From Gloeobacterales cyanobacterium ES-bin-313 (GTDB taxonomy: Bacteria > Cyanobacteriota > Cyanobacteriia > Gloeobacterales > Gloeobacteraceae): DNA of 49,276 nt. Made by a program: the position numbers and the translations under genes. A model generated the notes under the pieces. That model worked only from the letters and a program-made list of their open reading frames with translations. It searched no databases and was not told the origin of the DNA. This document shows, piece after piece, positions 19,987 through 26,113 of the stretch. The stretch is taken from contig JACMLN010000103.1 in assembly GCA_014379585.1 (NCBI GenBank), forward strand, positions 1 through 49,276, read 5' to 3'. How positions within the stretch are numbered: the first letter of the stretch is position 1; each line of letters begins with the position of its first letter.

Positions 19987-20344
19987 TGAACCCGGAAAAC
20001 TGGACAACTAGCTAAGTTATGCTCTCGCCTCCTAAACTGGTTATCAGAAGGAGCATCCCATGGCACAATCTCGTAAAAAGTACAGCTCTGATTTCAAGGC
20101 TAAAGTCGCTCTTGCAGCTATCAAAGGTGAGAACACAATTGCTGAACTCGCCTCTCAGTTCGAGTTGCATCCCGTTCAGATCTCGCAATGGAAAAAGGCA
20201 CTTCTAGAGGGTATTCCTTCTCTGTTTGCTGGCAAGCAAGTTAAAGAGGAGAACAAAGAGGCTGACCTCATCGATGCTCTCTATCGGCAGATTGGTCAAC
20301 TCACGGTGGAACGGGATTTTTTGTCACGCAAGTACGAGAAATAA
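19987..20344 (+). mobile_element. IS3-family remnant (left end and orfA only)
   Basis: TGAACCCGGAAAACTGGACA at 19987-20006 has the form of an IS3-type terminal inverted repeat. It is followed by a complete orfA (20060-20344). I find neither the integrase-bearing orfB nor a matching right end; the sequence runs directly into the 3' end of the Rieske gene at 20503. The element is truncated and cannot move by itself. Confidence 0.7.
20060..20344 (+). CDS. IS3-family transposase OrfA
   Basis: A 94-residue protein of the IS3 OrfA kind. An HTH covers residues 8-55 (YSSDFKAKVALAAIKGENTIAELASQFELHPVQISQWKKALLEG), followed by a leucine-zipper-like helix (DLIDALYRQIGQLTVERDFLSRKYEK) that would normally mediate dimerisation and lead into the frameshift to OrfB. 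OrfB is missing, so the gene is an orphan. A few codons after its stop (ERLTTLEHD) may be the residue of orfB. Confidence 0.9.
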   Translation: MAQSRKKYSSDFKAKVALAAIKGENTIAELASQFELHPVQISQWKKALLEGIPSLFAGKQVKEENKEADLIDALYRQIGQLTVERDFLSRKYEK

Positions 20345-20502: not shown

Positions 20503-21501
20503 TTATTCAACTCTGCTGAAGCTAGGTGCGACGATATTAGGAAAGTTTTCAAAATTACGTCGAACCCAGTCCATACCCACTTCATTGTTGAGTTTGATTT
20601 TTTGTTGGGTGTCAGGATAAATCTTTCCTAGAATATCTGCATCTTGATCTACAACCACTTTGCCAAACTTGAGATAGGCACCACCAAATACTTTAAAGAT
20701 GGGGTGCTTGGCTTGAGCAAACAGCAAAACATATGTCCGGGTCCGGTTCTTGGCTTCCGGCACAAAGAGGTGGCATTGAGCTGCTTTGCCCAACGGCATT
20801 TCGCCATGAAAAATAACTAGTGAGGGGAAATGATTTTCCAGATGCGCCTTGATAGTACTGGGCAGTAGGAGTAAATCAGGTTTTCTGAGTTTTTCTACCA
20901 AGCTGCATGGGGCTGTGGGCATCTCGTAAAATGCATGGGAGTGGTGCCCGTTGTCAATGAACTGATGAAATTCAACTTCGGTAATTCGAAATAAATCCCG
21001 GTGGGTGCCATTCTGATGATTGTAGTCGTGCATATTGAGCAGCATCGTCAGCAAATCTGTATCGACACTCCTATCTGCAGTATGACCAACAAAATAGTAA
21101 TTCTCTGCGATCTCAGCTAGCACTGAAGGAATGGGTATTTTGGGCGTATATCCACCGTACGACCAGATGAAATCTCCTTGAATAGTCAACTCTAAAGGTT
21201 TCAGTTGGGGCAATGTCTTTTTGTTAGAGCCTGGTAAAACTGTGCAGCCTAAGCCATCAAACTTGAGGGCGTGAAACGGACAAACCACTTCGCTACTGCC
21301 ATTACTTCTGGCCTCGCACCATCCCTCTGACAGCATGGCTCCCATGTGTGGACAGGCATTGGGTAAGGCAAAAATCTCTCCTGCAGCATTTTTCCACATC
21401 ACATAGTCAACATCGTACAGAGAAAATTTCCTCGGTTGATTTACGGCCAACATGGACTTGTGCGCCAATAGCCAAGGTGCACCAGGAAGTAGAGACTGCA
21501 T
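20503..21501 (-). CDS. Rieske non-haem iron oxygenase
   Basis: A 332-residue oxygenase. The Rieske [2Fe-2S] cluster motif is C50-x-H52 (NACPHMGAM) and C74-x2-H77 (VVCPFHALKF). The mononuclear iron site is D-x2-H-x4-H in NMHDYNHQNGTH. It is therefore a ring-hydroxylating-type monooxygenase or dioxygenase alpha component; no reductase or ferredoxin gene is adjacent. I start it at 21501 (MQSLLPGAPW), preceded by GGAGAA. A TetR gene diverges only about 50 bases away and is the likely regulator. The substrate is unknown. Confidence 0.9.
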   Translation of the reverse strand: MQSLLPGAPWLLAHKSMLAVNQPRKFSLYDVDYVMWKNAAGEIFALPNACPHMGAMLSEGWCEARSNGSSEVVCPFHALKFDGLGCTVLPGSNKKTLPQLKPLELTIQGDFIWSYGGYTPKIPIPSVLAEIAENYYFVGHTADRSVDTDLLTMLLNMHDYNHQNGTHRDLFRITEVEFHQFIDNGHHSHAFYEMPTAPCSLVEKLRKPDLLLLPSTIKAHLENHFPSLVIFHGEMPLGKAAQCHLFVPEAKNRTRTYVLLFAQAKHPIFKVFGGAYLKFGKVVVDQDADILGKIYPDTQQKIKLNNEVGMDWVRRNFENFPNIVAPSFSRVE

Positions 21502-21554
21502 AAGGTTCTCCGCCAGAGATAAGATTGTGAGGAATCCGTCGTGTTTTAAAATAT

Positions 21555-22331
21555 ATGACAGAACATTCACGTTCGTCAAGTAGCTTGCGCCGCCAACCTA
21601 AACAGCAGCGCGGTAAGGAACGGGTTGAAAGAATCCTAGATGCTGCCGCCGCCGTTTTTGATGATGTGGGGTATGACGCCGCAACAACCCATCAAATCGC
21701 AGCCCAAGCAGGGACAGCAATTGGCTCTCTCTATCAGTTTTTCCCAGATAAAGCCGCCATTTTTATGGCGATGGAATTACGTCATTCAGAGCGCGTGAAG
21801 TCAATGTGGGCACAGGTAGATATCCCCCAAATTGTCCAATTACCCCTGCGCCAAATGATTCAAACATTGACACAAGCAGTTGGAAGCCTATTTGCACATC
21901 CAGTCTCGCGGGTAGTGTTTGTGCAATTTTACCTAGCCCGCGAGATTTTTCAGTCCATTGATGAAAGCATGACCCAGGAGGCGATCAACTTCATGGCAAG
22001 TATCCTAAAACAACGAAATCCAAGCCTTAAAGAGGAACAGTACGCCTTGCTAGCAGAAGTGTGCGTGCATAGTAGCAATGCAGTGATGCTCGCGGCTCTT
22101 CGCAGCACTGATCAAGGGCATCGGCAACGGTTAGCTCAGGAGATCGAGGACTTGATGGTGTCATATTTAGAACCGCACGTGGGAGACAAACAGTCACCAG
22201 TTGTAATGAAAGTAATGATATGCCCTCACTGCCATTCAAAGCAGATATCTAAAAACGGAAATCGTAGGGGAAAACAGTGCTACATCTGCAAACAGTGTGG
22301 CAAGCAGTTTGTGAGCAATTCCTCTGGTTGA
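21555..22331 (+). CDS. TetR-family regulator with C-terminal IS1-type zinc ribbon
   Basis: A 258-residue protein. Residues 1-220 form a TetR regulator: an arginine-rich tail, HTH at about 24-70 (RILDAAAAVFDDVGYDAATTHQIAAQAGTAIGSLYQFFPDK), then an alpha-helical ligand domain. The last 37 residues are a zinc ribbon, C223-x2-C226 ... C245-x2-C248 (MICPHCHSKQISKNGN, CKQCGKQF), of the type that opens IS1-family InsA transposases. TetR proteins do not normally carry it. It most likely arose when an IS1-like element landed at the 3' end and was then truncated. The gene diverges from the Rieske oxygenase and probably controls it. Confidence 0.88.
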   Translation: MTEHSRSSSSLRRQPKQQRGKERVERILDAAAAVFDDVGYDAATTHQIAAQAGTAIGSLYQFFPDKAAIFMAMELRHSERVKSMWAQVDIPQIVQLPLRQMIQTLTQAVGSLFAHPVSRVVFVQFYLAREIFQSIDESMTQEAINFMASILKQRNPSLKEEQYALLAEVCVHSSNAVMLAALRSTDQGHRQRLAQEIEDLMVSYLEPHVGDKQSPVVMKVMICPHCHSKQISKNGNRRGKQCYICKQCGKQFVSNSSG

Positions 22332-23284: not shown

Positions 23285-26113
23285 ATGTTCATTTCCCTCT
23301 CACGCCGCTGGTTCAGTCTCTTTGCTACTTTGGTCATTGTCCTTGCAAATTTGACACCTATAGGTGCTGAGGCCTACATAAACTCTGTACCCAAAAGGGG
23401 AGCAGCAGATTGCCTTAGCTGTTTGCTTGCCGAACAATATCCTGGGCTTCGCCAACAATTGCAAGGGGAGATGCCATGGAATGTGGCCAATCAGCGCTTC
23501 GGCAAGCGCATGGCTGTAGGATTTACGACAACACTTGCGACCAGCATACAACCACCAAAAGATTTGCAGCCGCTTGAAAAACAAGCGTGGATGGCTATGA
23601 CTGAGCGGAAGCAGCTGAAACTGTTCATGCCACAGCAATACAACCACTCCACTGTCGTTGAAATGGGGCCGATTCGGGTTGAAGTCCAGCCCATCGCAGC
23701 ACAGTTAGTTAGAGCTGAACGCCAGGGAAAGGTACTTGTCTACAAGAATGTCTATCCAAACACCGATAGTGTTCAGGTTGCTAAGCAAGGAAAGAGCGAA
23801 GAGTTTTTGTACCTGCGTAACAAAACCGCGCCAAGTGTGTTCGACTACCGGGTGCAGTTGGGGCATGGAGTACAGGTGCATTCTGTTGCAGGCGGCATTG
23901 CATTCTTAGACAACCAAGGCAGGGGAGTGCGCATCGAGCGGCCTTGGTTGATGGATAGTACTGGGCAACGTAGTGAATCGGCAGTGCATTGGCAGGTTCT
24001 AGAGGGGGGAAAGCATCTTCGGTTAGTGGTCGAGCCTCAGGGATTGCACTATCCGCTGTTGGTGGATCCCACATGGAGCACCACTGCTTCTATGAGCACA
24101 CCTAGGGTGGGGCACACAGCCACATTATTGCCCAACGGTAGGGTTCTTGTGACGGGAGGACAAAGCAGCGCCAGCGCCTTAAGCAGTGCAGAGTTGTATA
24201 ACCCAGCAACAGGAATTTGGAGCAGCACTGCCAATATGAACATGCCTAGGGCGGAGCATACAGCGACGTTACTAAAAAATGGCACTGTTCTCGTGGCTGG
24301 GGGATCTAGCAACAACAGTGCGGAGGTCTACAACCCAACTTCTGGCAGCTGGAGTACCACCGCCTTAATGAACGCAGCTAGGTCAAGTCATACGGCGACC
24401 TTACTCAGTAATGGCAAGGTTCTGGTTGCAGGAGGAGGAGACAGTGGTAATGGCTTCAGCAGCACAGAGTTGTACGATCCATCGACAGGCATCTGGAATA
24501 CAACAGGCTCAATGAGCACAACAAGATTATCAGGCCATACAGCGATGTTACTCAATGATGGCAAGGTTCTTGTTGTAGGCGGCACCTTCTACCGGGACGA
24601 CGAAGATGGTGGTACCACCCAAGTCGTTTTGAGTGGTGCAGAATTGTATGACCCTCAAACTGGCTTCTGGACTGCAACAGGCTCCATGAACACATCAAGG
24701 ACAGGGCACACAGCAACGTTACTCAACAACAGTACAGTCCTGGTGGCGGGAGGAAACGATGGTGCTGGCCAGTTTAGAAGTGCTGAGCTATACACACCTG
24801 AAACGGGAGTATGGAGCACCACAGGTTCCATGAGTTTAGAAAGATACGATCACTCAGCAACGTTATTGAAAAATGGCAAGGTGCTCATTACAGGAGTCAC
24901 CTTTACCAACGACAGAATTAATAGTGCGGAATTGTACGATCCTTCAACAGGTCTGTGGACCGGCACTGCAAAGATGATCGTGCCGAGATCGGGTCATACA
25001 GCGACCCTGCTTAAAAGTGGCCAAGTTCTCGTCGCAGGAGGATACAGCAATAGTGTTTTAAGCAGTACGGAATTGTTCGCCCCATTGGCTCGGACTTGGA
25101 GTGCTACGAGTTTCATGAACTGGGCTAGGGTGTATCATACATCGACTTTATTGCCTAATGGAAAGGTTCTTGTAACGGGTGGCATTAACTACAACACCGG
25201 CGGCAGTGGCGATTTGAATAGTGCAGAACTGTACGATCCTAAGACTGGTATTTGGAGTACTACAGGCTTCATGAATTCAACTAGATACATTCACACAGCC
25301 ACATTACTCCCAAATGGTAAGGTGCTTGTGGTTGGAGGACAAACTAACAACCCAAGTAGTGCGGAGTTATACGATCCAGCATTAGGCACTTGGAGCTACA
25401 CATCCTCGATGAGTACGGGCAGGGCCGGTCACAAAGCGATTTTACTCAAAGATGGCAAGGTACTTGTGGTTGGAGGCAACGGGGGGGAATTAAGGACTGC
25501 TGAATTGTACGACGCAACAACAGATGTATGGATTAGTACTGGATCCCTTAACACTGTAGGGGACTTTTTCACAGCAACCTTATTGAAAAATGGCAAAGTG
25601 CTTGTGGCAGGAGGACAAAATAACCTCGGCGTTGTGAGTCTTGCAGCATTGTATGACCCAGCAGTGGGCACTTGGAGCGATACTGTCTCCATGAATATAG
25701 CCAGGGCATCCCACACAGCAACGTTACTGGCAAATGGCAAGGTAGTTGTTTCAGGGGGCTACAACGACAGCGAAACTTTGAGCAGTGCAGAAGTATACGA
25801 TCCAGTTGCGGGCACTTGGAGCGCCACAGGTTCCATGAGTACAGTCAGAGAATCTCACACAGCAACCTTATTAAAAAATGGCAAGGTGCTTGTCGCAGGG
25901 GGAAGAGGTGATAATACTGGAACTACAGAGTTGTATGACCCAATAACAGGGACTTGGGGTAGCGCTTCTCCTCTATTCGTGCTTCGGTACTCGCATACGG
26001 CCACGTTGCTAAAAAACGGCAATGTCCTTTTAGCGGGGGGCGACGGCGGTAGCGATGGTGGCGAACTGGACAGTGCTGAGATATACGGCTTCTTGAGTGT
26101 TTCTCCTCCATAG
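23285..26113 (+). CDS. exported protein with 14 Kelch repeats
   Basis: A 942-residue protein with a signal peptide ([20 protein letters not shown], probable cleavage after AEA near residue 31), so it is likely exported. Residues about 32-260 form a separate N-terminal domain with a CLSC pair. From about 265 to the end there are 14 Kelch motifs of about 46-58 residues, each following M-x-x-x-R-x-x-HTATLL-x-NGKVLV-x-GG ... SAELYDP-x-TG-x-W. Fourteen units could build two seven-bladed beta-propellers. Repeats 10 and 11 are the most divergent. Such proteins bind partners or glycans at the surface; the ligand is unknown. Confidence 0.92.

Follow-up and report, generated by a model that had tools for sequence, protein, structure and literature searches.

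What an IS1-type zinc ribbon is doing at the end of a TetR repressor, and whether it is there by accident or has been put to use, is the question raised by a gene at positions 21555 to 22331 (plus strand) of the window, the whole 49,276-nucleotide stretch of DNA from Gloeobacterales cyanobacterium ES-bin-313 that was analyzed here. The original prediction read the end of this gene as the ribbon of an IS1-family InsA protein joined in frame to a complete TetR regulator and offered two explanations, domestication of a transposase domain or neutral read-through after an insertion. We find that the gene, referred to here as the tetR-ribbon gene, represents a genuine domestication, long-standing and conserved, in which a putative TetR repressor took up a DNA-binding domain from IS1.

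The predicted architecture was confirmed. The open frame encodes 258 amino acids plus a stop codon, and relatives align along its full length. Residues 27 to 72 (21633 to 21770, plus strand) form a TetR_N helix-turn-helix (HTH) (Pfam PF00440; E 2.3e-14; 53.3 bits against a cutoff of 24), and residues 97 to 205 (21843 to 22169, plus strand) form the all-helical TetR_C_15 ligand/dimer domain (PF17918; E 4.6e-19; 69.5 bits against a cutoff of 26.8). A linker separates this domain from the C4 ribbon at residues 222 to 252 (22218 to 22310, plus strand), which was recognized by the NCBIfam IS1/IS1595 zinc domain NF050000 at residues 223 to 254 (44.1 bits against a cutoff of 28; E 2.2e-11) and by the transposase-like zinc domain NF048018 (45.2 bits against 27); the Pfam profile Zn_ribbon_InsA scored below threshold (14.6 bits; cutoff, 26.1). 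The segment at 22200 to 22331 corresponds to residues 216 to 258 plus the stop, and C223, C226, C245, and C248 lie exactly where they had been placed. In alignment A2, each of the 47 proteins with a ribbon matched NF050000 at E <= 1e-5, and the four cysteines are invariant among them, so that the ribbon match is not due to chance. An AlphaFold2 model built with 47 sequences (mean pLDDT, 87.8) resembles TetR structures and predicts three ribbon strands between residues 231 and 253 (231 to 237, 240 to 245, and 251 to 253) behind a low-confidence hinge at residues 216 to 219 (pLDDT below 50). A fold search with this model returned TetR cores only among the 50 matches listed, and in a sequence search of the PDB no solved TetR match reached residues 217 to 258. 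Of the InsA module, the window has the zinc ribbon only: the InsA-type HTH is absent from the protein, whose frame stops 10 residues past C248.

Relatives were sought in named genomes with alignment A1 and two peptide patterns from the TetR region. The ribbon was present at 54 of the best 80 loci (38 ribbon-only and 16 with ribbon plus HTH), a proportion that is not a population frequency, since loci were ranked by their match to a ribbon-bearing query; 7 others carry a different, winged-helix-like C-terminal domain, and the remaining 19, mostly distant TetRs and including one truncated by a contig end (L100), have no added domain. Of 386 genomes sampled evenly across the phylum, 13 gave a match that reached the ribbon (profile position 251 or beyond). 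Plasmids, too, carry ribbon-bearing, full-length relatives, in Kovacikia minuta (80%), Nostoc sp. C052 (74%), and Calothrix sp. NIES-4101 (49%), and full-length relatives occur in further genomes of the same class. Two TetRs close to the ribbon group that adjoin a Rieske gene, L063 and L096, end without the ribbon and seem to have lost it; L063 reads GTAGTGAAGCC where others read GTAATGAAAGTA, which looks like decay. At the DNA level, the ribbon-bearing TetR genes of a metagenome-assembled genome titled Candidatus Gracilibacteria SU_1_2 (L068) and of Hydrococcus sp. Prado102 (L069) are 91% identical, for which a mis-binned contig is a likelier explanation than transfer. The TetRs with a winged-helix-like extension share an SRRTLQR motif (L080, L082, L085, L091, L094, L097, L098, L036, and L013 to L016), and some of them also adjoin a Rieske gene; they represent a second type of added DNA-binding domain within the same TetR group.

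Pairwise dN/dS values, taken from 55 nonindependent pairs that share species and lie at synonymous distances of 0.1 to 1.2, were 0.066 for the ribbon, 0.046 for the TetR HTH (residues 21 to 73), 0.143 for TetR_C_15, and 0.344 for the linker (residues 208 to 216). The ribbon is under purifying selection at a level near that of the TetR HTH and is shared across species in frame, as is expected of a domesticated domain. Neutral read-through from a recent IS insertion in the window strain has in its favor the IS1 type of the module, but it retains practically no credibility in the face of 54 ribbon-bearing loci among the best 80, the plasmid and class relatives, purifying selection, and a window genome with no second good copy of the ribbon (next match, E 0.27); relatives do not all end at about residue 220, nor is the ribbon confined to one strain. 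The domestication reading is supported in turn by the same conservation and by the IS1-like origin of the ribbon, with one amendment: the regulator has indeed kept an IS1-derived domain, but the window strain did not itself gain it, the gain being old and shared.

Three findings support the IS1 origin: 16 relatives have an HTH behind the ribbon, the tails of these proteins resemble InsA, and transposon-end sequence lies within the reading frame. The tail of one such relative, L071, matched the first 81 positions of the NCBI IS1 transposase model NF033558 with 83.2 bits (the cutoff of 100 applies to the whole protein), and its structural model (mean pLDDT, 81.3) has ribbon strands followed by three helices. 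Over about 80 residues, ribbon-plus-HTH tails are 50 to 63% identical to the InsA-like sequences that match them best elsewhere in the cyanobacterial class, among them multicopy IS1 elements (15 copies in genome G101). In a tree with 30 InsA-like rows (82 columns), the fused tails of all 16 loci cluster together; the support is modest (84/75) and, like the other tree supports, comes from short alignments.

The transposon-end sequence in question is TGCA(C/T)A, the end sequence of cyanobacterial IS1 elements. It lies in frame ahead of the first ribbon cysteine in 13 of the 16 HTH-bearing fusions, at a distance of 30 nucleotides in 10 and 21 in 3, and the linker of these proteins reads L/M-H-N/K, that is, TTGCACAAT or near it. 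In L077 the motif is 81 nucleotides from the first cysteine, behind an insertion, and it was not found in the HTH-bearing L092 and L095. In the L077 gene (L077:5983-6945), this insertion separates two GTAATG copies and contains an extra TTGCACAATTAAATAATG, as if transposon-end sequence had been duplicated. Among 30 InsA-like loci, 11 have TGCA(C/T)A 21 nucleotides ahead of the first cysteine, preceding the InsA start, and 8 show the end motif together with an inverted copy downstream; one locus, L171, combines the 21-nucleotide spacing with InsB and a second end. Given the end sequence in the linker, at 3 loci with the spacing of L171, the 3' end of tetR probably received an IS1 insertion, and a fossil IS1 left end appears to sit in the linker of the HTH-bearing fusions; the 30-nucleotide spacing would then stem from a 9-base tandem copy of AAAGTAATG. 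Among loci L037 to L099, only L038 has an InsB-like match, more than 5 kb from tetR; the window contains no InsB-like match, inspection by eye of three frames 3' of its tetR stop found no InsB or IS remnants, and its junction has no recognizable transposon end. Sixteen InsA-like genes likewise have no InsB-like match in flanks of about 1.5 kb on each side (L146 to L150, L152 to L157, L159, L161, L167, L174, and L175); nine of them have TGCACA exactly 21 nucleotides ahead of the first cysteine, and the 16 are possible stand-alone InsA regulators.

The ribbon-only form of the window looks like a later shortening. In a tree of the TetR core (93 rows, quick method, unrooted, L086 and L100 dropped), the ribbon-only label changes 7 times (4 forced by starred branches) and the ribbon-plus-HTH label 6 times (3 forced). 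Taken together with the fossil end, this tree leads us to infer, by parsimony, one gain of the ribbon and several losses of the HTH; L076 and L079, for example, have no HTH, and their sisters L073 and L074 do. Of the 16 HTH-bearing genes, 14 contain TGCAYA, compared with 0 of 39 ribbon-only genes, a contrast that comprises only three independent pairs (3 for, 0 against; p 0.25), and the ribbon-only L008, which falls outside the 39, retains CTGCATAAT.

At the point of fusion, conservation of an unexpected kind was seen. The junction GTAATGAAAGTAATG (V217 to M221; 22203 to 22217, plus strand) is constrained at its synonymous positions. With L086 left out as belonging to the same record as L003, the codon for Val217 is GTA in 51 of 51 valine rows and that for Val220 in 47 of 48; the next most fixed fourfold column has a codon entropy of 1.42 bits, and the share of GTA at other valine columns is 4 to 36%. 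Mapped on the tree, third-base changes number 0 and 1 at positions 217 and 220, compared with a mean of 19.3 (range, 13 to 25) at 33 other fourfold columns. The codon between the two GTAATG copies varies (Lys, Asn, Ile, Ser, Glu, or Gln), and the copies themselves are fixed. A protein-level constraint would not explain L076 and L079, where the first GTAATG is kept out of frame (AGT AAT GAT), and the constraint appears to act on nucleotides, as DNA or RNA. Of 12 further ribbon-bearing junctions (L005, L006, L008 to L012, L029, and L126 to L129; L121, L122, and L007 were excluded as copies of L037, L040, and L051 over 120 nucleotides), 9 have both copies and 3 have one; no GTAATG was found at the junctions of L092, L093, and L095. 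The exact 15-mer occurs once each in 7 of 10 genomes searched, always at the tetR junction, and in those 10 genomes the exact AAA form of GTAATG-N3-GTAATG was found at tetR only. A genome-wide regulon defined by the general pattern was unsupported (29 places in the 10 genomes, 10 of them at tetR; 9 for a control pattern), and the divergent promoter has no clear shared site, with GTAATG in 22 of 61 regions (shuffled mean, 12.2) and TGCACA in 5 of 61 (shuffled, 9.95).

One conceivable cause is an internal translation start at the junction, by which the gene would yield both the TetR-ribbon protein and a short ribbon or InsA-like protein. The ATG ahead of the first cysteine corresponds to the start of InsA, the junction contains TAATG, and M221 is nearly invariant; against this, the GTA that precedes the ATG is unconserved in 30 InsA-like genes, which leaves the fixed GTA unaccounted for, and the first GTAATG is out of frame in L076 and L079 and the second ATG is lost in L078. 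We consider an internal start improbable. Recognition of the junction by some other protein, or an RNA signal that has nothing to do with the ribbon, fares somewhat better, if still as the less likely course, in that the constraint falls on nucleotides and the exact 15-mer is restricted to the tetR gene in the 10 genomes searched; its location argues otherwise, being a transposon-end relic next to a domain whose IS1 parent binds ends.

What the TetR part is likely to control is suggested by the adjoining gene. A Rieske oxygenase gene (Pfam Rieske, E 1.1e-13) occupies 20503 to 21501 on the minus strand, its probable start being the ATG at 21501 (the mechanical open reading frame begins at a TTG at 21579); in a PDB sequence search its product gave weak matches, the best to DdmC (E 1.2e-5). 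A Rieske gene lies upstream on the opposite strand at 50 of the 54 ribbon-bearing loci from the best 80. The pairing is not absolute, since L078, L092, L093, and L095, which keep both ribbon and HTH, have no Rieske neighbor, and in L077 the neighbor is partial. A GGAG at 21508 to 21511 (minus strand), conserved in the group alignment, is a possible ribosome-binding site for the Rieske gene, and a possible promoter at 21550 to 21579 (minus strand), read by eye and conserved in that alignment, consists of TTGACG (21579 to 21574), 18 bases, and TATATT (21555 to 21550). Pattern matching placed two copies of an operator-like motif in this region, O1 at 21526 to 21545 and O2 at 21554 to 21573, the latter spanning the tetR start codon and overlapping the possible Rieske promoter. 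The motif, TRTGA-N8/9-TCRYRTT, searched somewhat more loosely, matched 56 of the 61 upstream sequences, commonly at two places, compared with a mean of 3.2 and a maximum of 6 in shuffled sequences and 2 for a reversed control; the pattern was drawn after inspection of the sequences, and the control is thus generous. The winged-helix relatives also bear the motif (5 of 7 Rieske linked), which fits a site for the TetR part that they have in common. Just past the 3' end of the Rieske gene ends a 94-residue open reading frame (20060 to 20344) with a transposase HTH (HTH_Tnp_1, E 3.1e-8) that looks like an IS3-type OrfA, and downstream of tetR, at 23285 to 26113, lies the gene for a 942-residue protein with 12 or 13 kelch repeats.

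The explanation that we favor, and hold to be fairly probable as a whole, is that of a TetR repressor of the divergent Rieske gene that carries a DNA-binding module derived from the IS1 transposase. An ancestral cyanobacterial tetR gene would have taken a single IS1 insertion at its 3' end, which brought the left end and insA into frame; early fusions would have kept the whole InsA module, zinc ribbon and HTH, with the element end serving as linker codons, and the HTH would later have been lost in several lineages, that of the window included, the ribbon alone being retained by purifying selection. TetR dimers would use their HTH to occupy the two operator copies, which lie across the Rieske promoter and the start of tetR, and would silence the promoters of both genes until TetR_C_15 bound a ligand and the repressor came off. 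The ribbon, presumed to bind zinc, would offer a second nucleic acid contact by way of the flexible hinge, most likely with the invariant GTAATG-N3-GTAATG that lies within the gene at the former transposon end. InsA of IS1, as known from E. coli, is a repressor that binds the element ends and needs its zinc finger and HTH together to do so (PMC12428005). HTH-bearing fusions could accordingly bind the relic end as InsA does; DNA binding by the ribbon alone is less sure, since end binding by InsA needs both parts and the window form has one, and ribbon-only forms may retain a weaker or shorter contact with GTAATG.

The same consideration lends some weight to a role for the ribbon other than DNA binding, be it as a zinc- or redox-sensing flap, a contact with the dimer partner or RNA polymerase, or a stability tag. 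The window form has dispensed with the HTH on which InsA end binding depends (PMC12428005), the HTH has been lost in several lineages, and the model shows a flexible hinge at the junction; on the other side, N234, G235, K240, Q241, and Q251 are invariant in the 47 proteins besides the cysteines, and the retained nucleotide motif suggests nucleic acid as a partner, neither point being decisive. We judge such a role to be unlikely, albeit worth keeping in mind. The favored explanation, a second nucleic acid contact, also admits an extended version that we put forward tentatively, as the less likely case: the IS1 insertion may have supplied a DNA-binding domain together with the site that it recognizes. 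The TetR part would then occupy the operators, the InsA-derived part would bind the relic end some 650 bp downstream in its own gene, a loop or roadblock would couple Rieske repression to autoregulation, and site and domain would have been kept together, the TGCACA part being lost where the HTH was lost.

The architecture of the tetR-ribbon protein is new, and its parts are known. No description of a TetR-InsA fusion was found in searches of a collection of open literature. With InsA of IS1 (NF033558 and NF050000) it shares the ribbon, in 16 relatives the HTH as well, and an adjoining IS1 end, but it differs in being fused behind TetR, in having no catalytic InsB part near the gene at fusion loci, and, in the window protein, in having no HTH. 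With TetR_C_15 repressors (ScbR or KstR like by weak profile matches; nearest solved chain, 2oer) it shares TetR_N, TetR_C_15, a divergent putative target gene, and a palindromic operator-like motif; the difference lies in the additional C-terminal module that is predicted to bind nucleic acid. A second capture of an InsA module by a DNA-acting protein was observed in Pseudanabaena, where a Dcm-type cytosine-5 methyltransferase (L197:1529-2758, from a plasmid of Pseudanabaena sp. PCC 7367, and L163:1501-2742; TIGR00675, 236.9 bits) carries a complete C-terminal module of ribbon plus HTH (NF033558, 91.9 bits over residues 331 to 408), on a methyltransferase rather than on a repressor.

To our knowledge, eukaryotes offer well-known examples of host regulators that captured a DNA-binding domain from a transposase, and few have been described for bacteria. 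The TldR transcription factors derive from TnpB. These transposon-derived, RNA-guided factors (PMC13418256) are likewise bacterial regulators that came from a mobile element, but they belong to another protein class and are wholly element derived, whereas the tetR-ribbon protein owes one domain to its element. In eukaryotic captures such as that of the Tc1/mariner HTH in F-box genes (PMC12062965), a host gene also captured and kept a DNA-binding domain; the present case is instead bacterial, involves IS1 and a repressor, and has an element end that can be read in the coding frame. The capture can be followed stepwise, from complete module to shortened module to loss, and the transposon end can still be made out among the codons. 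The tetR-ribbon protein is a candidate repressor for a widespread and uncharacterized Rieske oxygenase, and if the junction motif is the target of the added domain, one insertion would have supplied the regulator with a new domain and a new site together.
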